DNA from: an uncultured Pseudomonadota bacterium
GTDB taxonomy: Bacteria > Pseudomonadota > Zetaproteobacteria > Mariprofundales > Mariprofundaceae
NCBI GenBank assembly: GCA_913055645.1
Contig: CAJXLC010000004.1
Location: 1-64,000, forward strand
Direction of reading: 5' to 3'
DNA length: 64,000 bases
Positions 5,981 through 57,914 of this stretch are shown one piece after another (the first letter of the stretch is position 1; every line of letters starts with the position of its first letter). The translations under genes and the position numbers were made by a program. The notes under the pieces are model-generated. The model did no database searches and had not been told where the DNA came from. It saw only the letters and a list, made by a program, of their open reading frames with translations.

Positions 5981-6349
5981 CTAACCGGGGTAAAACCAAA
6001 CAAATGCCACCACCCCATGAGCAATAGCCAAGGTTGTTGCCAGGCCCGCTGATAATACATGCCAAATAAACACATCTTTATCAAAAATACCCATTGCAAT
6101 GCCAAAACCTGCAGCAAGTAAAATAAGAATAAGTAAAGAACCACCCATCCAAAAAAGAATTTGATGTTTGCGCTTGACATCAATCAAACGCTCTGGCGCT
6201 ATTACAACATCATCATTAAATTGTTGCAGAACTTCTGCTGAGTGCTGGGTATTCACAGCTTCCGCAGTGGCTGCATAAGCTGAAGATGATGGAACCATAC
6301 CAAGCATAAACAAGGCAACTACAAAAATATACTTCATAGGGCTATTCAT
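5981..6349 (-). CDS. Small membrane protein at end of oxidase cluster
   Basis: About 120 residues from the chosen start. A signal peptide (MKYIFVVALF onward, cut near SSAYA) is followed by an exported segment of about 40 residues, then helices at about 75-97 and 105-130. Two His residues sit within the last helix (WHVLSAGLATTLAIAHG), which could bind heme, but that is speculation. The ATG used overlaps the stop of the upstream gene; another ATG four codons downstream (6337) is equally good. It ends the series of minus-strand genes that begins at the oxidase. No family recognised. Confidence 0.6.
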   Translation of the reverse strand: MNSPMKYIFVVALFMLGMVPSSSAYAATAEAVNTQHSAEVLQQFNDDVVIAPERLIDVKRKHQILFWMGGSLLILILLAAGFGIAMGIFDKDVFIWHVLSAGLATTLAIAHGVVAFVWFYPG

Positions 6350-6566
6350 CGTCATCATCCTTTTTCGTGGCATGCCACCAGTGCAAAACAATTAACAAAA
6401 CCATAGGAACAAAAACCAAACAGAAAATGAAAACAAAAATTGCCCAAGTCGTATCTATGTTCACATGTAGGTAACGATAGCTATCAACAGATGCCTGCGC
6501 TGAAATAGAGCCACATAGTGTTAGAATTGAAAAAAATATGCTTTGAATAAAACGCCGTAGTTTCAC
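6342..6566 (-). CDS. Small exported single-helix membrane protein
   Basis: A 74-residue protein with a signal peptide (residues 1-25, ending SAQA), a short periplasmic stretch, one transmembrane helix (about 41-63) and an acidic cytoplasmic tail KKDDDDE. It overlaps the FGE-fold gene upstream by four bases (ATGA) and the next gene downstream, so it is a tightly coupled cistron. The shape resembles small accessory subunits of respiratory oxidases, but there is no recognisable family signature. Confidence 0.6.
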   Translation of the reverse strand: MKLRRFIQSIFFSILTLCGSISAQASVDSYRYLHVNIDTTWAIFVFIFCLVFVPMVLLIVLHWWHATKKDDDDE

Positions 6567-7603
6567 TCTGCTACCCCTTCTGGTTTTTTAGTGGATGCAC
6601 AACGGAAACCATAAAAATCCGATGCCATATTAGGTAATGAGTAATTACGATGATAGCTCTCTGTTGAAAAAGGATCACTTTTCCATGAACCGCCACGCAT
6701 AACACGGTAGACATCACGCTCTACATTTTCCTTTCCAGTACCGCTAAACTGATCTTCGCGCGGATGAAATTCAATCGTTTTACCTTTGCTAGTAACATAT
6801 GGATTATACACATCGAAAACCCATTCCGATATATTTCCAGCCATATCCATCACACCATACGGGCTTGCCCCATGTTCATACTTAAAAACAGATGTACTAT
6901 GACCAACATTATAATAAGTATTCAAACGGCTCACATCCATTTGATTACCCCAAGGCCAACGTCGCGCATCTGTGCCACGCGCAGCTTTTTCCCACTCCAC
7001 CTCTTCAGGCAGGCGCTTGCCTTCCCAAGCACAGTAATCTCTAGCATTATACCAAGAAACAAGTGCTACTGGACGATCTTCCGTATTTACAGGAATTTTC
7101 CCATCCACCCAATTCAATGGTGGTCGATAATTCTTTTCAATGACAAATCTCGCATACTCAGCATTGGTAACAGGGTATTTATCAATCCAGAAATCATCTG
7201 TATGTATATGTCTTACAGGCCGATCAGCATCATTAGTACGCACTGAATTCGTTCCCATTTTAAAAGTACCCGCAGGGATATGAACCATTAGATTCAATTT
7301 TTTCCATACATCTACAGGTAATAGCTTGCTTAAATCTTCAGTTGAATACGCTTTTTTCTCATCAATACGCGCCTCATGTTTTGCTTCTATATAAATATCT
7401 TCACCAGCAGCCCGTTCATGCTTATCCACATCAGCAATATCATAACTTATCTTACCGCGCATTTCATCCATACGCATGGAGCCCAATTTCATCACATGCA
7501 ATGAGCCACCAATCATAGCTGCAGCAACGCAGGTTAAAAGAACTGCCATCGCAAGCCGTTTACGACGTTTTTTCTCTTTTACTGAAACAGGTTTACGTGC
7601 CAT
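6563..7603 (-). CDS. Membrane-anchored FGE/SUMF1-fold protein of the oxidase cluster
   Basis: 346 residues. A basic N-terminus and one helix (about 17-40) anchor the protein with its bulk outside the cytoplasm. From about 107 the sequence is a formylglycine-generating-enzyme (FGE-sulfatase) fold: IPAGTFKMGTN, FWIDKYPVTNAEYARF, LPEEVEWEKAARG, MDMAGNISEWV, RVMRGGSW and YGFRCA. After RGGSW, where true FGE enzymes carry the catalytic Cys pair, the segment reads KSDPFSTESYHRNYS without Cys, so sulfatase activation is unlikely. Relatives with this fold but without that chemistry include the NirV proteins of denitrification clusters. Its place among cytochromes suggests an oxidase-assembly or redox-accessory role, which is inference. 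The stop overlaps the next start. Confidence 0.8.
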   Translation of the reverse strand: MARKPVSVKEKKRRKRLAMAVLLTCVAAAMIGGSLHVMKLGSMRMDEMRGKISYDIADVDKHERAAGEDIYIEAKHEARIDEKKAYSTEDLSKLLPVDVWKKLNLMVHIPAGTFKMGTNSVRTNDADRPVRHIHTDDFWIDKYPVTNAEYARFVIEKNYRPPLNWVDGKIPVNTEDRPVALVSWYNARDYCAWEGKRLPEEVEWEKAARGTDARRWPWGNQMDVSRLNTYYNVGHSTSVFKYEHGASPYGVMDMAGNISEWVFDVYNPYVTSKGKTIEFHPREDQFSGTGKENVERDVYRVMRGGSWKSDPFSTESYHRNYSLPNMASDFYGFRCASTKKPEGVAE

Positions 7604-7608
7604 CTACT

Positions 7609-8109
7609 TTATTCTTCCTCATCGCACGGTAATGATTCGCCATCTGCGGGAGCATAATCTGCTGTTCCAGGCAAATCCATTGAGCCATACCAGCGTTTTA
7701 ATAATATCTCACCAAAGACCCCACCCATTGCGCAGAATTCCATATTTAAAATAACAAAAAATCCCCACCACATTAAAGGAATCAGGCTTGCTCCCTCAGG
7801 CGCACCTGTTTTCGAAGTCATATAATAATCTACAGACAATACGACTAATGGTGGAAAGTGAGCCAACCATTTACCACCCCAGCCATAAATCAAACCTACA
7901 ATAACACCTGTAAGCAAAGGTAATAAAAACATAGATAGAACAAACGCAAAGTTATAACCCGCAATACCCCAAAAAAGCTCTATTTGCACTCCCAATAATA
8001 GATGTCCCATATGAAAAAAGAACGCACTCGCAAAAAAAGCCACAAAAAAACGTTCCCATTTGGATGCCCAAGGCTTTGGGAAAACCTTACGTGCTTGTGA
8101 AGAACTCAT
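7609..8109 (-). CDS. Polytopic membrane protein of oxidase cluster
   Basis: 166 residues with about four transmembrane helices (about 20-42, 48-78, 83-98, 108-135) and an acidic, Pro-rich cytoplasmic tail. No heme motif or recognised domain. Its start lies 19 bases after the monoheme cytochrome gene and its stop 5 bases before the FGE-fold gene. This packing places it in the same operon, probably as an accessory or quinone-facing subunit; no sequence motif proves this. Confidence 0.6.
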   Translation of the reverse strand: MSSSQARKVFPKPWASKWERFFVAFFASAFFFHMGHLLLGVQIELFWGIAGYNFAFVLSMFLLPLLTGVIVGLIYGWGGKWLAHFPPLVVLSVDYYMTSKTGAPEGASLIPLMWWGFFVILNMEFCAMGGVFGEILLKRWYGSMDLPGTADYAPADGESLPCDEEE

Positions 8110-8128
8110 GCATCACCTCTAACTGTTT

Positions 8129-8617
8129 TTATTTTTTGGGATAAGGGTTGCCAGTTAACTTTTTATATTCAGATGCCCTTACATCTTGTAAATACCAGTT
8201 TTTAACTTTCATACCTGCAAAATATTGTGCCAATACACGTCGCTCACTTTCAGGCAAAGATGCGTAAGAAGGCATAGCGTATTTTGCTTTCAAACGTGTA
8301 GGGATAATAGATTGTGGATTTTTAGATGAAAAATAATCATACAACCATGCTTCAGTGCGTAGCGAACCAATACCATCCAAACTTGGGGCAGGCACCGTCT
8401 CCATAATATTTTTAACACCCCAAATAGTATGGCAATCTCTACAACCAATATCACGATACAAGTCAGCCCCTGCTAACTGCACACTTTTACTGGCTGTTGA
8501 ATAAAAAGGAATACCCTTGTCAACAATAGGGTTTTTGGAATCATAAATACCCTTCCCAATAGCTGCCACAACAACAAGACCCAAAAGACCAGCGATTAAC
8601 CAATCGCCCTTTCTCAT
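8129..8617 (-). CDS. Membrane-anchored monoheme cytochrome c
   Basis: 162 residues: an uncleaved N-terminal helix (about 7-24) anchors a periplasmic class I cytochrome c domain. The heme site is CRDCH at about 59-63 and the likely axial Met lies in YAMPSYASL. The segment APSLDGIGSLRTEAWL is closely paralleled in the other cytochrome of this region (14909-15508), so the two are probably paralogues. It is placed where a CcoP-type electron entry subunit would be expected, but has one heme rather than two. Likely delivers electrons to the CcoN/CcoO pair; inference. Confidence 0.82.
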   Translation of the reverse strand: MRKGDWLIAGLLGLVVVAAIGKGIYDSKNPIVDKGIPFYSTASKSVQLAGADLYRDIGCRDCHTIWGVKNIMETVPAPSLDGIGSLRTEAWLYDYFSSKNPQSIIPTRLKAKYAMPSYASLPESERRVLAQYFAGMKVKNWYLQDVRASEYKKLTGNPYPKK

Positions 8618-8618
8618 G

Positions 8619-8891
8619 TTAGCTTCTACCCTGTTCTTTCAAATATTCTTTACGAAGATCTTCTTGCTTCTTCATGACCTCTTTCATTTTTTTAAACTCT
8701 TCAGGGTCCATTTTATCTTTATCATTATCATCAAACACAAGATACTTGATATCTTCATCAAACTGATCATGTTTAGTAGCCCAGTGCAAACCAATAACCA
8801 CAGCTATTAAAAGAGATGCACCACTAATTAACCAAATATAAATCGTCCAGCCATCACCCCAGCTATTCATTGTTGCCGTTAATTCAGCCAT
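8619..8891 (-). CDS. CcoS-like small membrane protein with extended tail
   Basis: 90 residues with one transmembrane helix (about 18-37) and then WATKHDQFDEDIKYLVFDD. This closely follows the CcoS pattern, in which a helix is followed by W-A-x-x-x-x-Q-F-D-D and an IL-DD motif. CcoS is a small cbb3-oxidase maturation protein. Here an extra charged, probably coiled-coil tail of about 30 residues (KMDPEEFKKMKEV) is present that CcoS lacks. It precedes the monoheme cytochrome gene by one base. The assignment is by motif only. Confidence 0.55.
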   Translation of the reverse strand: MAELTATMNSWGDGWTIYIWLISGASLLIAVVIGLHWATKHDQFDEDIKYLVFDDNDKDKMDPEEFKKMKEVMKKQEDLRKEYLKEQGRS

Positions 8892-8912
8892 TATAAACTC
8901 CTTTTTTTCATC

Positions 8913-9221
8913 TTAAATCAAATAACCATCAAGTAATTGCACTGCAGCAAAAATTGCTGCCACAATCACACCTAATACAATCATTGCTATCAGAGCCTTT
9001 TCGCCTGTTCTAATATTACTCATGTCTGTGTGTCTAAAAAACAGACCAATCACACCCACAAAAACCACCATAGCAATCATCATGAAAGCAAAAATACCAA
9101 CGCTATAGCTTTGGCTACGCATACTCTCAATACCAAAAGAAGTGGCATCGGCAGCCATGCACTGACTACTCAGCGATAAATATAAAGTAAATATCAATAA
9201 CGTGGAGGTATATTGCATCAT
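8913..9221 (-). CDS. Exported two-helix membrane protein
   Basis: 102 residues: signal peptide (cut near CMAADA), a short periplasmic segment, then helices at about 42-64 and 76-99. No family recognised. It is the first cistron downstream of the terminator that closes the ccoN-ccoO transcript, so it either begins a second transcript (a promoter would lie in 9222-9290) or is reached by read-through. Two consecutive ATG codons open the frame; the ribosome site is weak. Confidence 0.55.
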   Translation of the reverse strand: MMQYTSTLLIFTLYLSLSSQCMAADATSFGIESMRSQSYSVGIFAFMMIAMVVFVGVIGLFFRHTDMSNIRTGEKALIAMIVLGVIVAAIFAAVQLLDGYLI

Positions 9222-9293
9222 ATCACGGCATTGTATCCATAATATAATAAATGAAAAGAGAAACTAAATTTCATTAAAAAATTTCTTATAGAC

Positions 9294-9326
9294 AAAAAAA
9301 ATGCCGCCCCAAAGGACGGCATTTTT
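9294..9326 (-). terminator. Intrinsic terminator after ccoN-ccoO operon
   Basis: Read on the minus strand, ATGCCGTCC-TTTG-GGGCGGCAT forms a stem whose only irregular pair is a U-G wobble, followed by seven T. On the plus strand the same pair would be C-A, so the structure is best for minus-strand RNA. It lies 15 bases beyond the stop of the 45-residue gene. Confidence 0.8.
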
Positions 9327-9341
9327 ATCAGTCGATCTAGT

Positions 9342-9479
9342 TTATTTTTGATGCTCATCACGAGGATCAGGTGTACCTTTTTTATGGTTATCAACGAAGA
9401 AACTATAAATAATGGGTACAATCAGAGCAAAAGAAATAACCAGCAGCCCACCAAGTTGAGCATTGTCAATATCAATCAT
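9342..9479 (-). CDS. 45-residue CcoQ-like membrane protein
   Basis: A short open frame starting MIDIDNAQLGGLLVISFALI, with one transmembrane helix (about 9-29) and a charged cytoplasmic tail (VDNHKKGTPDPRDEHQK). The ATG is preceded by AGGAG at a good distance. It lies 14 bases after the 226-residue gene and just before a strong terminator, so it is the last cistron of the oxidase transcript. Size and shape are those of CcoQ, the small cbb3 subunit, though sequence identity to it cannot be shown here. Confidence 0.65.
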   Translation of the reverse strand: MIDIDNAQLGGLLVISFALIVPIIYSFFVDNHKKGTPDPRDEHQK

Positions 9480-9493
9480 ATTAATCTCCTATA

Positions 9494-10174
9494 TTAGTGT
9501 GCAATGGTATGATCAGGCTTCCAAGTAATTGGAGGCAAACGTTTTACTGTGATAATGACAGCAAGACAAAAACAAAAGAAATAAATCACAGACGTTGTAT
9601 AACCTTTATCCCACCAAGGTTGCTTGTGTTCACGAGTGCCATCTTCTCTATAGTTTCCTTCAAAGTTTGCCAGGACAACTTCATTACCAATAACTGAATA
9701 ATCATCTAAATGAACATGCTGATTATTAAGTTCAATAATTTTAGGTGCCATAATACGCAAGTCATTCATTGAAATAGGATGCTGCGTACGCTGGAAAGCA
9801 AAAGGTGAATCATATTTCTCCAAAGAAGCTTCGATCATTGCCATAGCTTTTTCATCAGCCTCACCTGTGCTAATACTCTTATCGTTCAACACACGCTGAA
9901 CTGGCTGAGAATTCATCAAGGTAATATAATCCATATACATCGCAGCATTTGGACGTTGTCCAAACAGTGGGAAAGTCCAAGCAACTGCCGTAAGAAACGT
10001 AAGAATCAATAAACCTACAACTGGACGTGGTAGTGGATTGTTATTTTCCATAATTCCGCCCAAGCTTTCATTCTCCCAAATATGCGTAGCTAGATCATTT
10101 TTTGTAGAATCACTGAGTGTCTGTAATGGATGATTTAATTTCAGTCCATCTAATAATGGTAAAAATTTTGACAT
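9494..10174 (-). CDS. Oxidase-cluster membrane protein, uncharacterised
   Basis: 226 residues with helices at about 50-68 (PVVGLLILTFLTAVAWTFP) and 189-207 (SVIYFFCFCLAVIITV), enclosing a periplasmic domain of about 120 residues. No CxxCH heme motif. The order ccoN, ccoO-like, this gene, CcoQ-like suggests it takes the position of CcoP but without its hemes. No family recognised. It starts 12 bases after the ccoO-like gene. Confidence 0.65.
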   Translation of the reverse strand: MSKFLPLLDGLKLNHPLQTLSDSTKNDLATHIWENESLGGIMENNNPLPRPVVGLLILTFLTAVAWTFPLFGQRPNAAMYMDYITLMNSQPVQRVLNDKSISTGEADEKAMAMIEASLEKYDSPFAFQRTQHPISMNDLRIMAPKIIELNNQHVHLDDYSVIGNEVVLANFEGNYREDGTREHKQPWWDKGYTTSVIYFFCFCLAVIITVKRLPPITWKPDHTIAH

Positions 10175-10186
10175 CTAATATCTCCC

Positions 10187-11131
10187 TTACTTCAAGTTTA
10201 ATGCGAAGTCAATCAGCATACGAGCCTCTGAATCTGCTGGAGGCTCAGGTACTTCTGGTGGATAAATACGGTCACCTTCACGGTATGCATCAAATTCCTC
10301 ATCCCATTTCTTCAAATCAATTTTTTTGCCATTAGCATCTTTTGGACCCCAAAGATAATCATAACGAGGCATAATTGAATGTGGTTGAACCAAACGTGGA
10401 TTAAAGAAGTGCAATGTCATCCATTCTCTTGATGAATTACGCGAACCTACATGCAACAAATCTGGTGCTTTACGGTCAGAACCAAATGCTGTTGGTGATT
10501 CACCATTGAAATCACCCAATACTGGAGGGCGACCAAATGATTGCCAGTCATGCGTTCCTTCTGGAAGAAGTGTATGACACCACCAGCAGCCTTCACGTAT
10601 AAACATAGTTTTACCAGAACCAGCTAAAATTTTCTGATCAGCTGCTGCTAATGTTGCATTGACACTCCAGCCGCGTGTGGCTGTTGCGAATTCAATATAT
10701 GGCGTTTCAACACCATCTTTTATTGAGCTCCGAACAAGAAAAACACCACCCTTTTCTTCGCTGACCTGACCTGTCTTACCTAAAGATGCACTGAGAGCCT
10801 GCACAGCAGCCCCTAAGATATGCTTATGAACCAAACCACTTGGAAGTGATGTGCCTGGTTTAAACACATAGGCTGATACTTCATCAATTGCAGCCCCTGT
10901 CGCAGGGTCTTTTTTCAATGTTACTTTGATTGGCTTGTCATCACCATGGAGAAACAAATCCCCATAATCAAAAGCACTTGTTTTACCATAAGTCAGCTGT
11001 TTTTCCAAAGCTACACTTGTTGATGACACGCTGGAAATGTCCAGCCCTGGAAAATATATTGTAATCATCATTGATGTAGATAGCGCCACACCAAAAAGAA
11101 TTGATCCAACTCGATATTCACGGAATCCCAT
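10187..11131 (-). CDS. ccoO: CcoO-like monoheme cytochrome subunit, enlarged
   Basis: 314 residues: one N-terminal helix (about 8-28), then a periplasmic region of about 150 residues with no counterpart in ordinary CcoO, then the heme site CWWCH (182-186) in the context FIREGCWWCHT. This matches the CcoO pattern FIREGC-x-x-CH. The probable Met ligand is in HSIMPRYDYL, again as in CcoO. Normal CcoO is about 200 residues with the heme near residue 70, so this protein carries an insertion of roughly 110 residues before the heme. Position directly after ccoN supports the role: it accepts electrons from soluble cytochromes and passes them to CcoN. Ribosome site GGGAGGACGG. Confidence 0.85.
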   Translation of the reverse strand: MGFREYRVGSILFGVALSTSMMITIYFPGLDISSVSSTSVALEKQLTYGKTSAFDYGDLFLHGDDKPIKVTLKKDPATGAAIDEVSAYVFKPGTSLPSGLVHKHILGAAVQALSASLGKTGQVSEEKGGVFLVRSSIKDGVETPYIEFATATRGWSVNATLAAADQKILAGSGKTMFIREGCWWCHTLLPEGTHDWQSFGRPPVLGDFNGESPTAFGSDRKAPDLLHVGSRNSSREWMTLHFFNPRLVQPHSIMPRYDYLWGPKDANGKKIDLKKWDEEFDAYREGDRIYPPEVPEPPADSEARMLIDFALNLK

Positions 11132-11170
11132 TCTAACCGTCCTCCCTCTTTTTATTTTATCTCTAAAGTA

Positions 11171-11190
11171 GCAGGAGCCCGAAGGCTCCA
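11171..11190 (-). promoter_or_regulatory. UUCG hairpin between ccoN and ccoO
   Basis: On the minus-strand RNA, GGAGCC-UUCG-GGCUCC forms a six-pair GC-rich stem closed by a UUCG tetraloop, an exceptionally stable structure. No T run follows, so it is not a terminator. It sits in the 72-base gap between ccoN and the ccoO-like gene and probably serves mRNA stability or differential expression. Confidence 0.6.
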
Positions 11191-11203
11191 GCCCTATATT
11201 CCC

Positions 11204-12610
11204 TTAACGTACGTATGCAACTTCATGTGGAAGAATACCATGAGGAATCTTCTCACCGTGTTTCGCAGTCATATACATATTCCACAACCATACGATATTA
11301 CCCATGAATACCAAGGTACCACCAATCCAACGTACAATCATGTATGGATGTTCTGCAATCACGATATCCAAGTATGGTACTTCATAGATCTTACCAGCAC
11401 CTTGAATCAAGCCCGCGATGGTCATTGATACCCAATACAATGAGAATCCAACCAATAACATCCAGAAGTGGAAGTTCGCCAAGCTTAGAGAGTACAATTT
11501 ACGACGTAACAAGGTTTGCATGCCGTAATAAACCGCAGCCGCTTCAGCAAAGGTTGAGAAACCAAGCAATGCCAAATGAGCATGTGCCACAATCCAACCA
11601 GTACCATGAACATACCAGTTAATCGCACGTGTTTGCTGGAAACCACCCTGCATATTCAATGGAATCGCTAGAAGCACACCAGTGATGGTATATTTAAGCT
11701 CAATATTTTCCACGAACATTGCCCATTTGCCTTGCATGGTTAACAAGATATTACATACATAAGCAACCGCTGGCACAAGAATCAATACACCTTCAACCGA
11801 TGCAAATGATTTCAACCATTCAGGCAATGGAGAACTCATAATATGATGCGCTGCTGGTGTTGAATAGAACACCACAATAGACCAGAAATGCAAATGACCC
11901 ACGCGATGTGAATACAACGGATTACCCGTAACTTTCGGTACGATGTAATATGTAATCGCTGCTGCAACAGGCGTAATCAACAAGCCCAATACATTATGCG
12001 CAAACCACCATGTCATCAGTGCTTCGTTCAAACCAGTCAAATGCAAGAATTCAGGCATATTACCGACCAAGAACACAACAATTAACATAAAGAAAGAACC
12101 TACAAAGAACCAGTTCGTTGTATAGATGCCTTGTGTACGACGATTAATAACCGTCATAAAGGTGTTAACGAACAATGGCGCAACCATGCAAAGCGCAATA
12201 TACAAATCAATTGGCCAGATGAAATCTGAATACTCACGACCAGAAGTCATACCGAACCACAACGTAGAAAGTGCTAACATCAAGCCAACATTCCATGACA
12301 TGCAGTTCCAAACACCTAACTTTTCAGACCACAACTTGGTATTACCCAAAGCTGGTACGATGTACATCGCAGACATCGCAAAAGCACCCGTAATCCAACC
12401 AAAAATCACTGTATGCACATGCACTTGGCGCATATGACCAAATTGCAATGCATAATAATGCGTAAACCAATCGGGAAACGCCAACTTCGCCGCATTAAAC
12501 GAGCCTAAACCCGTACCAACAATAAACCACATGATACACGAAAAGCCGAAGAACAACGATGTTGTACCACCAGGAATATCTTCCTCTTTCGCAAACAAAT
12601 ATTTAAGCAT
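11204..12610 (-). CDS. ccoN: cbb3-type oxidase catalytic subunit I
   Basis: 468 residues, about twelve transmembrane helices. It is the heme-copper catalytic core that reduces oxygen to water. Ligands visible by position: His64/His66 in RQVHVHTVIFGW (low-spin heme), His205 in WWFAHNVLG (CuB), Tyr249 six residues before His255-His256 (FYSTPAAHH; the cbb3-type active-site Tyr and CuB ligands), and His343/His345 in WIVAHAHL (heme ligands). All catalytic residues are thus present. It starts MLKYLFAKEED with AGGAG upstream. Neighbours: a 35-residue membrane protein 56 bases upstream and a CcoO-like gene downstream. No canonical CcoP follows, which makes the complex atypical. Confidence 0.92.
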   Translation of the reverse strand: MLKYLFAKEEDIPGGTTSLFFGFSCIMWFIVGTGLGSFNAAKLAFPDWFTHYYALQFGHMRQVHVHTVIFGWITGAFAMSAMYIVPALGNTKLWSEKLGVWNCMSWNVGLMLALSTLWFGMTSGREYSDFIWPIDLYIALCMVAPLFVNTFMTVINRRTQGIYTTNWFFVGSFFMLIVVFLVGNMPEFLHLTGLNEALMTWWFAHNVLGLLITPVAAAITYYIVPKVTGNPLYSHRVGHLHFWSIVVFYSTPAAHHIMSSPLPEWLKSFASVEGVLILVPAVAYVCNILLTMQGKWAMFVENIELKYTITGVLLAIPLNMQGGFQQTRAINWYVHGTGWIVAHAHLALLGFSTFAEAAAVYYGMQTLLRRKLYSLSLANFHFWMLLVGFSLYWVSMTIAGLIQGAGKIYEVPYLDIVIAEHPYMIVRWIGGTLVFMGNIVWLWNMYMTAKHGEKIPHGILPHEVAYVR

Positions 12611-12666
12611 TTACTTACTCCTTTTTATTAAAAAAATTAACCAAACCAACCAAAAAAATCTATCTT

Positions 12667-12774
12667 TTAATCTTCCTGATCTTCGTCATGTTGGCCAGGC
12701 ATCAATAGATACCATGCAAACCACATACTCGAAAATGCCAAAAGAATTCCTAACATCGATGCTACTGTTGCCAT
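12667..12774 (-). CDS. 35-residue single-helix protein before ccoN
   Basis: A short frame beginning MATVASMLGILLAFSSMWFA with one transmembrane helix and an acidic tail (PGQHDEDQED). The ATG has an excellent ribosome site, AGGGAG, seven bases upstream. It lies 28 bases after an 87-residue membrane protein gene and 56 bases before ccoN on the same strand. Too small for routine gene calling, but start signal, hydrophobicity and position argue it is real, probably a structural or assembly microprotein of the oxidase. Confidence 0.65.
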   Translation of the reverse strand: MATVASMLGILLAFSSMWFAWYLLMPGQHDEDQED

Positions 12775-12802
12775 CTTTACACTCCCTATCCCTTATTTGA
12801 TA

Positions 12803-13066
12803 TTACTCTTTAATTTTTCCTTCGCGAATGCCATGCAATTTCAAGGCATACCCAAGAATCCATACAAAAACAGCACCAAAAATAATCATTACCCAGTTAC
12901 CGAAACCTTCAAATGTAAATGGTGAATATGCATCGGATCCCCACAAGCCAGCTTCAGGAAACGGACCGCGACCCACTGCCAACTGCGTAGCAATTGTAAA
13001 CACAGAGCCATTACCCATACCAGTAATGAAACCAGATACAATAAGTAGCCATACTGAATTTTTCAT
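12803..13066 (-). CDS. Two-helix membrane protein opening the oxidase operon
   Basis: 87 residues with a first helix (about 4-25), a Gly/Pro-rich periplasmic loop (GRGPFPEAGLWGSDAYSPF) and a second helix (about 55-76) followed by a basic cytoplasmic end. No family recognised. The ribosome site is AGGGAGGAG, and a good sigma-70-like promoter lies just upstream, so this is the first gene of the oxidase transcript. Confidence 0.65.
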   Translation of the reverse strand: MKNSVWLLIVSGFITGMGNGSVFTIATQLAVGRGPFPEAGLWGSDAYSPFTFEGFGNWVMIIFGAVFVWILGYALKLHGIREGKIKE

Positions 13067-13113
13067 ACTCTCCTCCCTATTAAAACTACATTAATCAATT
13101 TTAATCTCGCCAA

Positions 13114-13141
13114 ACATTAAGGCAATTTAACCTAGTGTCAA
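13114..13141 (-). promoter_or_regulatory. Candidate sigma-70 promoter of oxidase operon
   Basis: On the minus strand a perfect -35 hexamer TTGACA is followed after 16 bases by TAATGT, a fair -10. The implied transcript would begin about 40 bases before the first gene (start 13066). No complete FNR-type dyad is seen nearby. Based on pattern only. Confidence 0.4.
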
Positions 13142-13213
13142 GCCCATAAGTTAATTAAGGTTATAAACAAGCTTGCATTGCCATAACTTCCTTTCACCCG
13201 CATACTTGCAGAT

Positions 13214-13408
13214 ATGAAAGAACTACTTATTTATAGCATTAGCGCTTGCGCTTCACTATTTATTTTAGGCTATGTTGTACACATTTTTATAGGCGGACTT
13301 GTTGAACCTCTAACTGAAGCCATTGCCATTGGAGCAGCGGTTTCTACGAGTGCCTCTGTCATGGCATGGATGGTTCGAGATGTCTTAAAAACACGTAAAA
13401 AACGTTAA
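13214..13408 (+). CDS. Small two-helix membrane protein
   Basis: 64 residues with helices at about 5-27 and 33-52 and a strongly basic C-terminus (DVLKTRKKR). No family recognised and the ribosome site is poor. It stands alone on the plus strand between two minus-strand oxidase-related operons and converges on the 153-residue gene. Probably real, but uncertain. Confidence 0.45.
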   Translation: MKELLIYSISACASLFILGYVVHIFIGGLVEPLTEAIAIGAAVSTSASVMAWMVRDVLKTRKKR

Positions 13409-13433
13409 ATCAATAAACGCCGAGAAAAACTAT

Positions 13434-13895
13434 TTATTTATAAAAAGCTAATGCCTTGGTCACAGCATTAAAATCATCTACGGAAAACTGCCCTTTATGA
13501 AAAACATATTGCTGTTTTTTCCCCATCTCGTCAGTTCCCGTTAAACCAAAAGATTTCTCCGCTTTATCTGAAAAAAAACGAATATCACGCATCAAAAGGC
13601 GCTGTTCATTGTTTTTAAGCTTCAAAGCAATACGTTCTTTGGATATATCCAAAACAACTGGCGCAGAAGGCATCAGCAAAAGGCGGCGCAAGATACGGCC
13701 TCCACCCACCATTAAAAAGAAAAATCCCAAGAATATCAACACTTCACCTAACATTTGATTATCACCTACAAACCAATAACGTAGGCCAATTAACAGCAGA
13801 AATGCCACAGTAGGAACATATAATAATAAATCCCAAATAATCCCCACTTTATCTGCTTGTAAAGAACACTGCACCTCTTGCCATGATTTAGCCAT
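13434..13895 (-). CDS. Two-helix membrane protein, uncharacterised
   Basis: 153 residues: helices at about 21-40 and 49-65 (LGEVLIFLGFFFLMVGGG), then a soluble C-terminal domain of about 80 residues facing the cytoplasm, with a beta-rich pattern (VVLDISKERIALKLKNN). No family recognised. Its start overlaps the preceding thioredoxin-fold gene by eight bases, so it is the last cistron of the mini-oxidase operon. Confidence 0.6.
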   Translation of the reverse strand: MAKSWQEVQCSLQADKVGIIWDLLLYVPTVAFLLLIGLRYWFVGDNQMLGEVLIFLGFFFLMVGGGRILRRLLLMPSAPVVLDISKERIALKLKNNEQRLLMRDIRFFSDKAEKSFGLTGTDEMGKKQQYVFHKGQFSVDDFNAVTKALAFYK

Positions 13896-14397
13896 TGCTA
13901 GTCATCCCAAGGACATGTTGTATTTCTGGTTCAATTTCAAAACGCAATACGCGCCCAGGGGCAATATATTCCACTTTTCCCTGAGCATTAATTACAAATG
14001 TCCATGGCTCACCACGCACTTGAAATGTATTATAAGCTTCAGGATTATAATATTGATCCATATGCAAAAATAAAACTTTATCGCCATAACGGTTAAGCAT
14101 TACTTTCAAAAGTTGCAGCTGTTGATCACATTGTGTGCAATGCCCTGGTGTTGCAAATTCTAGAACAATCGGTTTACCTTTTTTAAGAGCCTCATCAAAT
14201 GATAATTGATACATTCGCGGATCTGGATAGCGGTAACTTGTAAGCTTAGACATATCACCACCAGCATCTGCCAGTGTTTTGGTTTTTAATGAAGGTACTT
14301 GCTGCCCAATATGAAACACACCACCACCGCCATTAAATGCATCACACCCATTCAATAACAACAACGCAGCAACACACAAGCCTAAATATCGCATCAT
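13888..14397 (-). CDS. Thioredoxin-fold lipoprotein
   Basis: About 169 residues from the ATG overlapping the upstream stop (CGATGATG; the next ATG is equally possible). A signal peptide with lipobox LLLNGC is followed by a thioredoxin fold: the segment PIVLEFATPGHCTQCDQQ carries a CTQC active-site pair, and later EPWTFVINAQGKVEY matches the region around the cis-Pro strand. It is probably tethered outside the inner membrane. Its place between a subunit-I-like protein and cytochrome genes suggests a redox or copper-insertion helper, similar in position to Sco or TlpA factors. The role is inferred. Confidence 0.75.
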   Translation of the reverse strand: MMRYLGLCVAALLLLNGCDAFNGGGGVFHIGQQVPSLKTKTLADAGGDMSKLTSYRYPDPRMYQLSFDEALKKGKPIVLEFATPGHCTQCDQQLQLLKVMLNRYGDKVLFLHMDQYYNPEAYNTFQVRGEPWTFVINAQGKVEYIAPGRVLRFEIEPEIQHVLGMTSNG

Positions 14398-14912
14398 CGT
14401 TCCTCTTTCCAGCCTGCACATGTTTTAAAAATATTATACGCCCAAATAAAGTTTGCCAAAAGAACCAAGGTGCCAAAAATACCCATGGTCGCCAGCCAAG
14501 GTTTTACAATTTCTTCCACTTCAGCTGGAGAAACATGCTCACTGGCGATACCACCAGCAACACCTGCCACAGTAAAAAACACCACCATACCAATCAAACC
14601 AAAGTTATGAATCCAAAAATGCCACTTAACCAATTTAAGGCTATAAATTGGGCGTTTAACCAAGCGCGGAACAATATAATAAACGGCTGCAAAAATCGCC
14701 ATTTCAACCCAGCCCAGCAAGTTAATATGCGTGTGGGCGCGCACAATCAAATTACCATGCATACGATGATCAACAAAGTGGCGAAAATCTGAAATCCCCC
14801 CCATCAAAGCGCCCCATGAAAAACCAATCATACTATAAATCACACAAGCAAAAATAAACCATAAGGTATATTTAATGTACTCCTGATCTTCCCACGGTTG
14901 CTGCGCCATCAC
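14394..14912 (-). CDS. Miniature heme-copper oxidase subunit-I-like protein
   Basis: 172 residues, about four transmembrane helices. The segment VRAHTHINLLGWVEM...AVYYIVPRL parallels VHVHTVIFGW...AMYIVPAL of the full CcoN in this window, so it corresponds to roughly the first quarter of subunit I. His60/His62 match the heme-ligand region. The CuB ligands, active-site Tyr and second heme-ligand pair of CcoN are absent, so it cannot reduce oxygen alone. It overlaps the upstream cytochrome by four bases (GTGA) and the thioredoxin lipoprotein downstream. Possibly a quinol- or heme-b-binding electron-transfer subunit; inference. A truncated pseudogene is unlikely given tight coupling and intact frame. 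Confidence 0.75.
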   Translation of the reverse strand: MMAQQPWEDQEYIKYTLWFIFACVIYSMIGFSWGALMGGISDFRHFVDHRMHGNLIVRAHTHINLLGWVEMAIFAAVYYIVPRLVKRPIYSLKLVKWHFWIHNFGLIGMVVFFTVAGVAGGIASEHVSPAEVEEIVKPWLATMGIFGTLVLLANFIWAYNIFKTCAGWKEER

Positions 14913-15508
14913 TTCACTCCTTCACTACTTGCTTTTTTATCACGAATATCTGTATATTTTTCTTTCCATGTATTTGGCGCCCATGTCTTCACCATAGAGT
15001 CAATGAATGGTGATTCGCCTTTCGGAGGCACTGGTGATGATGATGAACCTTGATCAGAGCGAAGTTCGGACAAAAACACTGCCAAATCATGAATGTCTTG
15101 TTTTGGCAACAGAGCTACATAATAAGCCTGTTTAGGGCTCTTGCCATGGTCCATGGTTACATCACCATAAGTTTTCTCTGGCTCTAGTAAAAAATTCTCC
15201 AGCCACGTCACACTACGCCTTGAACCAATGCCATCCAAGCTATTGCCCATATTGGTACCTTCAGCCATCGCCCTATGACACTCAGAACATGCCTGGCGAC
15301 GGTAAATTTGAGACCCACGTTTCCCAGTTTCCGTTAAATCAAAATGTGTATGCTGTTCAAAAATAGGCTTATCACGCGTTGACATCTCATATTGCATAAT
15401 GCCAAAAGCAATACCGGCTAGGATAATAAAGGCTCCAGCCACAATAAATAAAAGTTTTTCGCCTGTTTTCAAAAGGTGTTTTTTAGTTGGTTGGTTGTTT
15501 TTTGTCAT
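14909..15508 (-). CDS. Membrane-anchored monoheme cytochrome c
   Basis: 199 residues. An N-terminal helix (about 18-39) anchors a class I cytochrome domain with heme site CSECH and a following segment NSLDGIGSRRSVTWLENFLL that is closely similar to the cytochrome at 8129-8617. A candidate axial Met is not as clear as in that paralogue (VTMDHGKSP). First gene of a four-gene overlapping operon with the mini subunit I. Presumably the periplasmic electron partner of that protein. Confidence 0.8.
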   Translation of the reverse strand: MTKNNQPTKKHLLKTGEKLLFIVAGAFIILAGIAFGIMQYEMSTRDKPIFEQHTHFDLTETGKRGSQIYRRQACSECHRAMAEGTNMGNSLDGIGSRRSVTWLENFLLEPEKTYGDVTMDHGKSPKQAYYVALLPKQDIHDLAVFLSELRSDQGSSSSPVPPKGESPFIDSMVKTWAPNTWKEKYTDIRDKKASSEGVK

Positions 15509-17078: not shown

Positions 17079-17828
17079 TTAGCGACGTGGTGCTGATGGG
17101 TTTCCTGCGGTTGCAGGGCGAGCCACTGTCAAAAATGCAGCTACATTTGCAATATCTTCATCCGTCAGTTTTACTGCCACCTTACGCATTAGACCCATAG
17201 GATCATTGTCGCGAGCTGCGTCATCATCCGATGATTTCGTTGTCGCTCCCAAACGCCAAGCTTCCAGTTCATGTTTTAAATAAACATAACGTTGGCCACC
17301 AATCGCTGGGAACATATTACCCGCAGAGCGACCGTGAAAAGCATGACAACTCTTACATGCAGGAACACCGCGCTTTGGAATACCATAGTCCGCAATCACT
17401 TGACCTTTGTATACTGTGCCAATCTCTTCGCCATCTTTACGCATCTGATCCAAGTCAGAACCCATAAACGGTGTTTTTAACGAATGCACATAAGCAGCAA
17501 CATTATCACGCTGCTCTTTAGTCAAAGCTTTCGCAATATCATTCATCTGATACATGGTATTATCCATGCGTTTGCTTGTAGCAAAATCTTCAAGTTGCTT
17601 CCTAATATATTTTTGAACTTGATATGCTAGACGTGGGGTTCCCATATCATCAGCACCCATGCCGCCCATACCATGGCAACTCGCACAAGCTGGTACAGTA
17701 TCGCCAATGCCATTTTCAAAAATAACACGACCAGCAGCTGCATCGCCAACACCTTCAGCCATTGCAGACTGTGACACAGCCGTCACACTTAATAGTGCCG
17801 CAGCACTTAACATCATTAAACGCTTCAT
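17079..17828 (-). CDS. Diheme cytochrome c4-like protein
   Basis: 249 residues with a cleaved signal peptide (MKRLMMLSAAALLSVTAVSQ, cut near AMAEG). Two class I cytochrome domains follow, with heme sites CASCHG (about 48) and CKSCHA (about 150) and the paired motifs ALTKEQRDNVAAYVHSL and KLTDEDIANVAAFLTV. This is the layout of periplasmic cytochrome c4, the usual electron donor to cbb3-type oxidases. The start is fixed by GGGAGGAG before the ATG; a longer frame upstream lacks a signal sequence. A 44-residue membrane protein is encoded 37 bases upstream, and a strong terminator follows. Confidence 0.88.
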   Translation of the reverse strand: MKRLMMLSAAALLSVTAVSQSAMAEGVGDAAAGRVIFENGIGDTVPACASCHGMGGMGADDMGTPRLAYQVQKYIRKQLEDFATSKRMDNTMYQMNDIAKALTKEQRDNVAAYVHSLKTPFMGSDLDQMRKDGEEIGTVYKGQVIADYGIPKRGVPACKSCHAFHGRSAGNMFPAIGGQRYVYLKHELEAWRLGATTKSSDDDAARDNDPMGLMRKVAVKLTDEDIANVAAFLTVARPATAGNPSAPRR

Positions 17829-17865
17829 TCCAACTCCTCCCTTATATAAATCAATAATAATCGAA

Positions 17866-39601: not shown

Positions 39602-40888
39602 ATGTTAAATCAAAAAATGTCTATACTTACATTATTTTGTATTTCCACATTACTGATGCTTAGCGCCTGCTCACATGCGCTAAAAACAACATCATTACCC
39701 CTGCCTACAAGCACGGAAAAGCCAACTGCCTCCCTAGAAAAAAAACTTAAAAACATTCAAGAAAGTACAAACCGCGTATCACAGGATCCATTCTTACAAG
39801 GACTACTACCCCAAGACATTGCTCGCGCCCAAGCTTCAGCGAAAAAACATATACTTCCACACTGGTCACGTATCATGAAGCGTTCAACCTTTGTGCGCCA
39901 ACGCCTTATCGACACATTGGTAAGCATGCATGCACCGCTTTCACTACAACTTATTCCCATTGTAGAATCAGGTTACCAGCCATATGCATTGTCTCGCACA
40001 GGCGCGATGGGTTTATGGCAACTTATGCCTGGTACTGCCAAGCATCTTGGCATTAAAAAGAACCGTTATATAGATGGTCGCCGCAACGTGGAAAAATCAA
40101 CCCGTGCTGCTGTTACATATTTACAAACACAATACAAACGTTTTGGTAACTGGCCATTGGCATTTGCTGCCTACAATATGGGGCCGTATGGCCTTGCAAA
40201 ACGCTTGAAAAAAACGGCATGGACATTGGACAATGGCCTAGAAAATATGCCCGTGCCCATAGAAACTCGTAATTATGTACGACAAATCATTGGTCTGACT
40301 GCCTTATTTAACATGCAAACCATTAGCTTTCCGGACCCTATTCCAACCCAAGTAATGACTTTGCATGCTCCTGTTGACCTTAAACAACTTGCAAACTCAT
40401 CCAAGCTGCCCAAGTCACTTTTATTTCGAATCAATCCAGGCTTACACTATAGCCAATATTTACGACATGATATCACGATTCATGCCCCTAAAGAAAGCCT
40501 TCTTTCATTGCAAAAACAACAAGATTTCCATCGCCCCAAATATATTAAAGTCAAAGTTCGATCAGGCGACTCATTGTGGAAACTGGCACATCAGCATCAT
40601 ACCAATGTTACCCACCTACACAAACTCAACCCCAAACTTCCACGCACCTTAAAAATAGGTATGCCTATTACTGTACCGGCTTATTCTTTTGCGCGCGCTA
40701 CAGCAACCAGTAACCCCTTGTTATCCCAAGGTCGCCGTATTCGTTATAAAGTCCACAAAGGCGATTCTTTATGGAGCATCTCTAGACGCTTTGGCACATC
40801 CACACACGCCATTTCCCGTGCCAATCAACTATCTAAAAATGCAATCATTCGTCCTGGAGACAGATTATGGATTCTAGCTCGTATTTAG
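39602..40888 (+). CDS. mltD: Membrane-bound lytic transglycosylase MltD with two LysM
   Basis: 428 residues: lipobox MLSAC, then a lysozyme-like SLT domain (LIPIVESGYQPYALSRTGAMGLWQLMPGT with the catalytic Glu, AAYNMGPYGL) and two C-terminal LysM domains (VRSGDSLWKLAHQHH, VHKGDSLWSISRRFG) that bind peptidoglycan. It cleaves murein glycan strands with formation of 1,6-anhydro ends. Its last 22 bases overlap the start of the peptide-binding protein gene in another frame. Confidence 0.93.
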   Translation: MLNQKMSILTLFCISTLLMLSACSHALKTTSLPLPTSTEKPTASLEKKLKNIQESTNRVSQDPFLQGLLPQDIARAQASAKKHILPHWSRIMKRSTFVRQRLIDTLVSMHAPLSLQLIPIVESGYQPYALSRTGAMGLWQLMPGTAKHLGIKKNRYIDGRRNVEKSTRAAVTYLQTQYKRFGNWPLAFAAYNMGPYGLAKRLKKTAWTLDNGLENMPVPIETRNYVRQIIGLTALFNMQTISFPDPIPTQVMTLHAPVDLKQLANSSKLPKSLLFRINPGLHYSQYLRHDITIHAPKESLLSLQKQQDFHRPKYIKVKVRSGDSLWKLAHQHHTNVTHLHKLNPKLPRTLKIGMPITVPAYSFARATATSNPLLSQGRRIRYKVHKGDSLWSISRRFGTSTHAISRANQLSKNAIIRPGDRLWILARI

Positions 40889-42537
40889 TTCGTCTATGTT
40901 TTATTTTTACGCTACTTGGCTTACTCACTGCTTGCTCATCTGAGTCCAGCACACAACCAAGTGCTTCATCTAACACCATCAGCGATAACACCCCTGCTTT
41001 TGGTGACCGCCTTATCACTGCATCTATTGGCGATGCTTCAACACTGATTCCTATGATTGCAGGCGATAGTGCTAGCCATGAAATCGCAGGCTGGTTATAT
41101 CAACCCCTTCTAAAATTTGATAAAAATTTAAATATTACAGGACAACTTGCCCAATCTTGGGATGTGTCTGATGACGGACTCAGCATCAGCTTTCATCTTC
41201 GTCCAAATGTTACTTGGAGTGATGGCAAGCCTTTCACATCAGAGGATTGTGCGTTCACATTGGCATTGATTCAAGATGAGCATACCCAAAGTGCCTACAA
41301 ATCCGATTATGCCAAAGTAACATCTTTTGAAACCCCTGATAAACAAACCTTTGTTGTGCATTACAAAGAAGTTTATTCCCCTGCTCTTTCCACATGGGCA
41401 GGTTTGGCAATCATGCCCAAACATATCTTTGAACACGAAGATATTATGCATACAGATTTGGCACGTCACCCCAAAGCCACTCTAGGCGCATATATGTTAA
41501 AGGATTGGCAAGCTCAACAATCCATCACGCTGCAAGCCAACCCCAATTATTACGATGGCAAAGTATGGATTGCAGAGCGCATGACCCGCATTATTCCTGA
41601 TTCAGCCACCCAGTTTTTAGAGCTTACAGCAGGTAATATTGATGAAATGGGGCTAACACCCACCCAATATTCCCGTTTATTTGAAAGTAAACCTGTATTA
41701 AAAGCGCATTATAATCGCTATAAATACCTGCAATCCGTTTACACATATTTAGGCTTCAATCTAAAACGCCCACTCTTTCAAGACCACCGCATACGTGAAG
41801 CTATCGCTTATGCTATTGATCGTCAGGAATTGATTAATGGGGTTTTATTAGGTCACGGTGAAATCATTGCATCACCATACAAGCCCGGCACATCATGGGT
41901 GAATAAATCGCTAAAACCACGTGCTTTTAACCCAGATAAAGCAAGGAATATACTTGCCAGTGCTGGTTGGATTGATTCTGATAAAGATGGTTACCTTGAT
42001 AAACATGGCAAAATGCTTTCATTCACTATTATCACCAATAATGGCAACAAACAACGTGCTGATACGGCAACCATTATTCAACAACGGCTCAAACAAGTCG
42101 GCATAAAAGTGAATGTGCGACTCATCGAATGGTCAGCTTTTATTGAGAATTTCATCAACAAACGTCAATTTGATGCTGTGATTCTAGGCTGGTCACTCAC
42201 GCCTGAACCCGATCAATATAGTATCTGGCATTCATCCCAAACTGGAGCTAGGCAATTTAACTTTTTGAGCTACAGCAATGCCAAGGTTGATAAAGCATTG
42301 ATTGAAGCCACGCGCACCTTTGATAAAAGTAAGCGCAAGCAATGGTATGACATCATGCAACAAGAAATTTATAACGATGTTCCCGTGGTATTTTTATATG
42401 CACCTTACTCATTACCTGCCGTACACAAACGTATTCAAGGCATCAAGTCTGCCCCAGCTGGCATTGGTTATAACAGTGAATTTTGGTATGTTCCCCAAGA
42501 AGCACAAAAATATCAAATCACCAGCATGCAGCCATAA
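40867..42537 (+). CDS. Oligopeptide-binding lipoprotein (SBP family 5)
   Basis: 556 residues with lipobox LLTAC and the ABC family-5 binding-protein fold: LAQSWDVSDDGLSISFHLRPNVTWSDGKPFTSED, YLGFNLKRPLFQDHRIREAIAYAIDR and a closing FWYVPQEAQ. It would capture peptides or similar solutes in the periplasm. GGAGA precedes the ATG, which lies inside mltD. No permease or ATPase gene is nearby. The overlap with mltD suggests murein-peptide recycling as a possible role (inference). Confidence 0.87.
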   Translation: MDSSSYLVRLCFIFTLLGLLTACSSESSTQPSASSNTISDNTPAFGDRLITASIGDASTLIPMIAGDSASHEIAGWLYQPLLKFDKNLNITGQLAQSWDVSDDGLSISFHLRPNVTWSDGKPFTSEDCAFTLALIQDEHTQSAYKSDYAKVTSFETPDKQTFVVHYKEVYSPALSTWAGLAIMPKHIFEHEDIMHTDLARHPKATLGAYMLKDWQAQQSITLQANPNYYDGKVWIAERMTRIIPDSATQFLELTAGNIDEMGLTPTQYSRLFESKPVLKAHYNRYKYLQSVYTYLGFNLKRPLFQDHRIREAIAYAIDRQELINGVLLGHGEIIASPYKPGTSWVNKSLKPRAFNPDKARNILASAGWIDSDKDGYLDKHGKMLSFTIITNNGNKQRADTATIIQQRLKQVGIKVNVRLIEWSAFIENFINKRQFDAVILGWSLTPEPDQYSIWHSSQTGARQFNFLSYSNAKVDKALIEATRTFDKSKRKQWYDIMQQEIYNDVPVVFLYAPYSLPAVHKRIQGIKSAPAGIGYNSEFWYVPQEAQKYQITSMQP

Positions 42538-57214: not shown

Positions 57215-57910
57215 ATGGCAGAACAACTAAGTGTATGGGCACTGATTCTTGGTGCAGGCATTGTCGTAAAAGGTGTGCTCATTCTCCTTTTATTACTATC
57301 CATTGTCTCATGGGGCATTATCTTCAACAAAGCACGCATTTATCGAAAGGCTCGCCAAGATGCAGCCGCATTTTCCGATGCTTTTTGGAGTGGCTCGGAT
57401 ATGGATACCATTCTTGCCAGTATCCCCAACCGCTATCCCAATAGCCCGCTACCCAACATTTTTCAAGCTGGCTACCGTGAATATATTCGTCAACGTGGTG
57501 ATGCCAAACAAGAGACTTCTGGCAACAAAATCACTGCTGGCCATGGTCTGGAAGGCATTCGCCGCTCATTGGATGCTGCCCTTTCACGCGAAATGGAACG
57601 TCTTGCACGTCACTTGGCATTTCTTGCCACGGTTGGCTCAACCTCACCTTTTATTGGTCTCTTTGGCACAGTATGGGGCATTCTTACAGCATTTCAGGGT
57701 ATTGCAGTCTCACAAAACACATCACTAACAGCCGTAGCACCTGGCATTGCCGAGGCCTTGGTTGCCACAGCATTCGGATTGGTCGCCGCCATTCCTGCTG
57801 TAGTTGCATACAATAAGTTTACCTCCGACTTGAAACGCCAAGCCGCTAGCATGGAACAATTCGCTTCTGAATTTCTAAATATCATGTCACGTCATATTCG
57901 CCGAGGTTAA
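57215..57910 (+). CDS. tolQ: Tol-Pal motor protein TolQ
   Basis: 231 residues with three transmembrane helices (about 16-36, 135-160, 170-195). MotA/ExbB-family motifs GSTSPFIGLFGTVWGI and GIAEALVATAFGLVAAIPAVVAYN are present. With TolR it uses the proton gradient to energise TolA during outer-membrane constriction. GGGAG ribosome site. Confidence 0.95.
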   Translation: MAEQLSVWALILGAGIVVKGVLILLLLLSIVSWGIIFNKARIYRKARQDAAAFSDAFWSGSDMDTILASIPNRYPNSPLPNIFQAGYREYIRQRGDAKQETSGNKITAGHGLEGIRRSLDAALSREMERLARHLAFLATVGSTSPFIGLFGTVWGILTAFQGIAVSQNTSLTAVAPGIAEALVATAFGLVAAIPAVVAYNKFTSDLKRQAASMEQFASEFLNIMSRHIRRG

Positions 57911-57914
57911 TCGT

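Follow-up and report, generated by a model that had tools for sequence, protein, structure and literature searches.

The oxidase locus

The window, a 64,000-nucleotide stretch of DNA from an uncultured member of the Mariprofundaceae, carries a block of oxidase genes at 5981-15508, nearly all on the minus strand. Every gene listed for this block in the first-pass annotation was found in its place by reading the open reading frames and by profile searches. The set encodes an O2-consuming enzyme of respiration in bacteria that oxidize iron or nitrite; CcoP, the two-heme subunit that usually receives the electrons, appears to be replaced in it by a heme-less stand-in and two one-heme cytochromes. 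The genes of the block and a nearby cytochrome c4 gene are as follows; counts out of 53 refer to loci whose sequence extends 6 kb or more downstream of ccoN, and counts out of 50 to those extending 4.7 kb or more upstream.

5981..6349, minus: small membrane protein, final gene of the block; kept in 48/53 loci
6342..6566, minus: single-helix small protein; kept in 48/53 loci
6563..7603, minus: membrane-anchored FGE-fold protein without the catalytic cysteines; FGE-sulfatase E 1.4e-54
7609..8109, minus: four-helix membrane protein; no family, AlphaFold pLDDT 84
8129..8617, minus: membrane-anchored monoheme cytochrome c, CcoO-like; Cytochrom_C E 9.5e-5
8619..8891, minus: CcoS-like protein; FixS E 0.003 (sub-cut-off), motif ATKHDQFDEDIKYLVFDD, kept in 50/53 loci
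8913..9221, minus: 102-aa membrane protein; kept in 50/53 loci
9494..10174, minus: CcoP-like but heme-less, 226 aa, with a soluble domain flanked by two membrane helices and no CXXCH; FixP_N E 2.4e-4 (sub-cut-off)
10187..11131, minus: CcoO, a 314-aa enlarged subunit II with one heme (CXXCH at aa 182); FixO E 1.2e-17
11204..12610, minus: CcoN, catalytic subunit I, 468 aa; Pfam COX1 E 5.8e-75
12803..13066, minus: 87-aa membrane protein immediately upstream of ccoN; in 50/50 loci with upstream sequence
13214..13408, plus: 64-aa membrane protein; in 63 loci, on the opposite strand in every one
13434..13895, minus: small membrane protein, two helices; no family, kept in 46/50 loci
13888..14421, minus: thioredoxin-like lipoprotein containing CXXC, a chaperone candidate for copper or thiols; Thioredoxin E 2.9e-6
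14394..14912, minus: mini subunit I with ~4 helices and an invariant HxH; COX1 E 7.1e-18
14909..15508, minus: membrane-anchored monoheme cytochrome c, CcoO-like; Cytochrom_C E 4.8e-9
17079..17840, minus: Cyc1-like diheme cytochrome c4, probably the electron donor; closest solved relative 1h1o_A, E 1.8e-17

The catalytic subunit

The closest solved relative of the window CcoN is that of P. stutzeri (3mk7_A, E 1.1e-61, ~30% identity), and it is the sole full-length COX1 protein in the source genome. The subunit is catalytically complete, as had been proposed: H60, H207, H257, H258, H347 and Y251 (P. stutzeri numbering) are invariant in 78/78 CcoN sequences, and H345, the partner of H347 in the HxH pair, is seen when the window protein is aligned pairwise with 3mk7_A. 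All six histidines of heme b, heme b3 and CuB and the active-site tyrosine of helix VII (Tyr251) are thereby kept, and by its ligands the protein is C-type. Four residues held in typical CcoN are altered throughout the same 78 sequences (Y237H, S240G, Y317A and E323Q); T215 is retained alongside Y251. We take Y237, S240 and Y317 to be the conserved K-channel residues of the C family, and E323 to be a residue common to NORs and cbb3. Because these channel residues are altered, the window CcoN, whose ligands and fold place it in the C-type family, is classed there as a variant rather than a standard member.

Cytochromes and a heme-less CcoP-like protein

CcoO, the monoheme subunit of canonical cbb3 enzymes, is present and enlarged, as described earlier. 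Its FixO match is confined to aa 169-262, ~140 additional residues separate the membrane anchor from the heme domain, and it matches CcoO chains in the PDB with E 1e-13. The 8129-8617 and 14909-15508 cytochromes, each with a single CXXCH and a single N-terminal helix, are paralogues (profile-profile E 5e-32), as had been noticed. Both are related to canonical CcoO in profile-profile comparison (E 1.2e-6 and 1.5e-6, respectively); the idea that they are split halves of CcoP was rejected since they lie nearer to CcoO. An orthologue of the c4 gene lies directly upstream of the 14909-15508 orthologues in gammaproteobacterial and Nitrotoga loci; this context and its similarity to c4 make the c4 protein a likely Cyc1-like donor.

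cbb3 oxidases normally use CcoNOQP. The earlier statement that no standard CcoP is visible holds genome-wide: a profile search of the source genome found no CcoP with two CXXCH motifs above cut-off, which refutes an ordinary ccoP elsewhere unless it lies in the missing 0.5%. Nor does the rest of the genome hold an ordinary ccoNOQP cluster, whose presence, had these genes not been conserved together, would have told against a distinct enzyme.

The only FixP_N match in the source genome is the 9494-10174 protein. FixP_N is matched in 20 of 25 of its orthologues, with a best E of 7.5e-5 and all scores below the Pfam gathering cut-off, and CXXCH occurs in 0/110 related ORFs. Comparison of its profile with that of canonical CcoP gives a weak match (E 0.0046), in which the motif GGIxENNNxLPxPV aligns, also weakly, with DGIRELTNPPPRWW of CcoP. 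The predicted fold has no match in the PDB. Another heme-less CcoP-like protein is encoded on a second contig of the source genome, C6. The FixP_N resemblance makes the 9494-10174 protein a probable, heme-less derivative of CcoP.

Accessory and assembly genes

The miniature second subunit I, recognized earlier, corresponds to COX1 positions 310-434, and its H60 and H62 are invariant in 22 sequences. It matches CcoN chains in the PDB and also resembles NorB. The FGE-fold protein has SUMF2 (1y4j, E 1.9e-37) as its closest solved relative. Its catalytic segment reads RGGSWKSDPFSTxxYHRNY with no Cys in 22 sequences; the catalytic pair that defines a formylglycine-generating enzyme is missing, and the non-catalytic assignment stands. 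The thioredoxin lipoprotein was also confirmed, its lipobox LLNGC and CTQC motif being read in the sequence. The CcoS-like assignment is retained though the FixS match is sub-cut-off. The seven small membrane proteins are all there, six on the minus strand and the 13214-13408 protein opposite; the predicted fold of the 7609-8109 protein has no PDB match and no solved relative.

FixI and CcoG had been reported missing. This is correct within the window, and FixI is absent from the whole source genome, which has a CopA-type ATPase only. It is incorrect for CcoG beyond the window: two copies of a CcoG homologue, scoring below the equivalog cut-off, lie on contig C6 alongside eight further cluster genes. 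CcoG escaped notice because this genome has the cluster divided between two contigs; in PV-1, most of the C6-type block comes directly after the CcoN cluster. CcoG is part of the oxidase gene set. A genome-wide search found neither FixH nor SCO. Of the canonical ccoGHIS assembly genes, the source genome therefore has the CcoG homologue and a weak CcoS, and lacks FixH and FixI.

Conservation and distribution

Gene order is kept in dozens of genomes of Zetaproteobacteria, Gammaproteobacteria and Gallionellales/Nitrotoga. CcoO and the heme-less protein accompany CcoN in 53/53 loci, the FGE-fold protein in 48/53 and mini subunit I in 46/50, so the association is not due to chance, and the co-occurrence of CcoN, FGE-fold protein and mini subunit I suggested as a check is borne out. 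In a few genomes ccoN does not have one or other of the FGE and mini-subunit blocks as its neighbor, and these blocks may therefore be accessory rather than stoichiometric parts.

Among 41 zetaproteobacterial genomes with the system, 22 have no CcoP above cut-off and carry the system alone (14 of these are at least 90% complete); a full CcoP occurs alongside the cluster in 19. In five Nitrotoga genomes this CcoN and the mini subunit are the only COX1 (subunit-I-type) proteins, and no CcoP scores above cut-off. Both in these and in the source genome, the enzyme is the only heme-copper oxygen reductase found. As a control, ordinary cbb3 loci of related genomes carry a diheme CcoP, with neighbors resembling CcoG, FixH and P-type ATPase genes. 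Among 398 genomes sampled across the phylum, no case appeared outside Zetaproteobacteria, so the distribution is patchy; the gammaproteobacterial and Nitrotoga cases derive from a separate contig scan.

A model for the enzyme

The reading we favor, at a probability of roughly two in three, is a cytochrome c:O2 oxidoreductase that is C-type (cbb3-like) and belongs to the "distal" branch, and in which the heme-less CcoP-like protein and two CcoO-like cytochromes replace the diheme CcoP, with a dedicated assembly set. From gene content, order, conservation, residue states and genome-wide absences, all observed directly, we infer the activity, the accessory roles and a single complex holding the cytochromes and the heme-less protein. 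The earlier proposal of a distinct oxidase with its own assembly set survives in the conserved accessory genes and the lack of a heme-bearing CcoP. It gives way in that a relative of CcoP, though heme-less, is probably there, CcoG is one of the set, and the catalytic clade very probably has a name already.

In this model, a reduced periplasmic cytochrome, probably the adjoining diheme c4, would pass electrons to the membrane-anchored c hemes, and these through heme b to the b3-CuB site, the place of O2 reduction in CcoN. The two monoheme cytochromes would stand in for diheme CcoP, giving with CcoO three c hemes again, and the heme-less protein would hold CcoP's structural place. The thioredoxin lipoprotein may substitute for the absent SCO, FixI and FixH in assembly. 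Mini subunit I could handle heme b or carry an additional one, the FGE-fold protein could be a scaffold, and the CcoG homologue, CcoS-like protein and small membrane proteins would complete the assembly set.

A rival arrangement, which we consider unlikely though it is the strongest competitor, is an oxidase of CcoN-CcoO alone, with the monoheme cytochromes as free, membrane-anchored electron carriers in the manner of cytochrome cy; the heme-less protein would then be an assembly factor rather than a CcoP remnant. A Paraburkholderia plasmid has a CcoN-CcoO-type locus without an annotated CcoP, the FixP_N similarity is short and sub-threshold, and cytochrome cy is positioned beside CcoN via its helix (PMC7876108). 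Against it, CcoO and the heme-less protein are never missing from the 53 loci with enough sequence and sit adjacent in the window and in loci read gene by gene, and both cytochromes are strongly co-conserved. A heme-copper NO reductase or other non-oxidase, to which the NorB resemblance of mini subunit I might point, is improbable: the CuB histidines and cross-link Tyr251 form the C-type oxidase signature missing from NorB, E323, which we take to be shared by NORs and cbb3, is Gln, and no other heme-copper oxidase candidate was found in the five Nitrotoga genomes. That this is an ordinary cbb3 operon with ccoP relocated is least probable of all, since the CcoP of the 19 genomes, where loci were read, belongs to an additional full ccoNO(Q)P cluster that includes a CcoN of its own, and the source genome, the five Nitrotoga and 22/41 genomes have none above cut-off.

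Beyond the favored composition lies an evolutionary reading that we hold at even odds. The diheme CcoP would have been lost from this heme-copper oxidase lineage, and electron entry rebuilt with a duplicated pair of CcoO-like cytochromes placed around a heme-less relic of CcoP. Proton uptake would follow a route different from those of characterized C-type oxidases, copper and heme would be inserted by machinery particular to the lineage, and the enzyme would be the only cytochrome c oxidase in Nitrotoga and in many iron oxidizers.

Nitrite is too oxidizing to feed a quinol oxidase, and for this reason the enzyme should be the working oxidase in Nitrotoga. It is apparently the sole terminal cytochrome c oxidase of these nitrite oxidizers and of several iron-oxidizing Zetaproteobacteria, and would therefore set their oxygen affinity and energy yield. 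A cbb3-type oxidase had been predicted in Nitrotoga, and "high-affinity, proton-pumping cbb3" was inferred from annotation (PMC6050957). Despite this label, the subunits, copper-insertion genes and three presumed K-channel positions that define characterized cbb3 enzymes are replaced here. The gene set provides named targets for cryoEM or proteomics and tests the modularity of electron entry and proton uptake across the heme-copper superfamily.

Comparison with known systems

The "distal" cbb3 clade is reportedly that of Ducluzeau et al. 2008. Papers on iron oxidizers name two cbb3 forms, "proximal" and "distal", whose subunit composition reportedly differs (PMC7029218, PMC8788666); genomes carry two forms, one ordinary and one of different subunit composition, and Sideroxydans ES-1 has a Cyc1 homologue next to a cbb3 cluster (PMC7029218, PMC10734462, PMC8788666). 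The window CcoN very probably belongs to this named branch; in our tree, which was built without reference distal sequences and whose node support is low, it falls in a long-stemmed clade apart from canonical CcoN. The clade of the catalytic subunit is very probably a known one already. For the subunit set no published account was found, and the "distal" passages of the same three papers describe no heme-less CcoP-like protein, two monoheme cytochromes, mini subunit I, FGE-fold protein or altered channel residues.

The FGE-fold protein shares its fold with SUMF2 and its relatives over the whole domain; unlike them, it is membrane-anchored, lacks the catalytic Cys and is encoded within an oxidase cluster. 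Unlike the canonical ccoNOQP system of P. stutzeri (3mk7), the source genome has no diheme CcoP, FixI, FixH or SCO, and Y237, S240, Y317 and E323 are altered. Common to both are the CcoN fold, the heme and CuB ligands, the CcoO heme domain, and the CcoS-like and CcoG-like factors.

Gene order and conservation of the cluster

The cluster belongs to a 1.88 Mb genome (completeness 99.5%) assigned to Mariprofundaceae because its CcoN is 88-94% identical over most of the protein to several records of that family. Read from 15508 to 5981, on the minus strand unless stated, its genes are:

14909-15508, anchored monoheme cytochrome
14394-14912, mini subunit I
13888-14421, thioredoxin-like lipoprotein
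153-aa membrane protein
13214-13408, opposite strand, 64-aa membrane protein
87-aa membrane protein
11204-12610, CcoN
10187-11131, CcoO
9494-10174, heme-less CcoP-like protein
102-aa membrane protein
CcoS-like protein
8129-8617, second anchored monoheme cytochrome
166-aa four-helix protein
6563-7603, FGE-fold protein
two small membrane proteins

Several adjoining frames overlap by short stretches (14909-14912, 14394-14421, 6563-6566), as seen in operons. The 80 contigs retrieved with CcoN were scanned with a profile of each gene; gene order and strands, down to the single gene on the opposite strand, recur in Zetaproteobacteria, Gammaproteobacteria and Gallionellales/Nitrotoga. Among loci with enough flanking sequence, 53 of 53 carry both CcoO and the heme-less protein; the 87-aa protein is present at 50 of 50, the FGE-fold protein at 48 of 53, and mini subunit I and the thioredoxin-like protein at 46 of 50. 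The 64-aa gene, between the cluster halves, keeps its opposite orientation in 63 loci.

In related loci, a fused MFS/spermidine-synthase-like protein, CcoG and a second heme-less CcoP-like protein are encoded next downstream; in Mariprofundus PV-1 small cytochromes and a divergently oriented third mini subunit I follow. In the window's genome the counterparts lie on another contig, C6 (46119-49580 and 56098-61429), so that here the module is divided between two contigs. The C6 block also encodes a 470-aa membrane protein, whose orthologues sit within the Nitrotoga cluster, and a DUF420-like protein, which resembles CtaM oxidase assembly factors and may act likewise.

The third COX1-like mini protein (181 aa, C6:48462-49007; 14463-15008 of stretch L089) carries the motif DPLAHAHINLVGG, adjoins a 189-aa Bact_hydrolase-like protein and the DUF420-like protein, and is 75% identical to a protein adjoining the PV-1 oxidase cluster. 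The fused protein (857 aa, C6:58832-61405; 8832-11405 of stretch L090), a consistent CcoG neighbor in the module, has no obvious oxidase connection. C6 carries two ccoG genes ~18 kb apart, 57519-58835 (L090) and 39608-40909 (L089), and the first ~400 residues of their products, as printed, look identical; recent duplication and a gene-conversion or assembly effect are candidate readings.

Heme content and accessory proteins

The 9494-10174 protein is the sole FixP_N (Pfam) match in the genome (E 2.4e-4, under the gathering cut-off); FixP_N also matches 20 of 25 orthologues. CXXCH is absent from all 110 related reading frames. When the profile is compared with that of canonical CcoP, GGIxEDNNRLPxPV aligns weakly with DGIRELTNPPPRWW (E 0.0046), and the second heme-less protein is akin to the first (E 2e-7). 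Paralogy links the two anchored monoheme cytochromes (E 5e-32), and both are nearer canonical CcoO (E about 1e-6) than CcoP. With CcoO they bring the c hemes to three, as many as canonical CcoO and CcoP have together, and they may substitute for the CcoP hemes.

A diheme cytochrome c4 (17079-17840) adjoins the cluster. Its nearest solved relative is cytochrome c-552 (1h1o), which we take to be the Acidithiobacillus Cyc1-type protein. Since a Cyc1 homologue also adjoins a cbb3 cluster of Sideroxydans ES-1 (PMC8788666), the c4 is likely the electron donor to the oxidase. In the FGE-fold protein the catalytic segment lacks cysteine, and SUMF2 is the nearest solved relative; the protein is most safely read as a scaffold or chaperone.

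Oxidase content of the genomes

Besides the window CcoN, the genome has no second full-length COX1 protein, no CcoP over the cut-off, and neither FixH nor SCO; its copper ATPase is CopA-type only. The thioredoxin-like lipoprotein, which carries CTQC, is a candidate to take over the missing SCO function. By-eye reading places a bd quinol oxidase on C6. Across zetaproteobacterial genomes (n = 78), the heme-less protein occurs in 41 and a CcoP over the cut-off in 40; in 22 the heme-less protein occurs without such a CcoP.

Five Nitrotoga genomes have no COX1 proteins other than the window-type CcoN and mini subunit I, and no CcoP over the cut-off. Because nitrite is unable to reduce quinone downhill, the window-type enzyme should be the oxidase at work in Nitrotoga. 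A cbb3-type oxidase has been predicted there (PMC6050957).

Relation to known cbb3 oxidases

Compared with P. stutzeri CcoN (3mk7), 78 CcoN sequences retain all metal ligands, Tyr251 and Trp203 and are uniformly changed at four positions: Y237 to H, S240 to G, Y317 to A and E323 to Q. The first three correspond to residues attributed to the C-family K-channel (Hemp and colleagues). Ordinary CcoN of related Zetaproteobacteria, Rhizobium, Sphingobium and Bernardetia retain all four. Two divergent CcoN on Cupriavidus and Paraburkholderia replicons share Q323 with the window clade, and the Paraburkholderia one also H237. In the CcoN tree the window clade stands apart on a long stem, with low node support.

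On Paraburkholderia fungorum plasmid pBIL (2158-6842 of stretch L099), two c-type cytochromes, one resembling 14909-15508, precede a CcoN-CcoO pair with no annotated CcoP nearby. This CcoN has Leu for Trp203; the locus may be a simpler relative that lacks CcoP.

Papers on iron oxidisers speak of a proximal and a distal form of cbb3 (PMC7029218, PMC10734462), to which PMC8788666 ascribes different subunit compositions. No published description of the window-type gene set was found in a search that did not extend to the founding paper on the distal form. Since the zetaproteobacterial loci examined are of two kinds, ordinary and window type, the latter is very probably the distal form.
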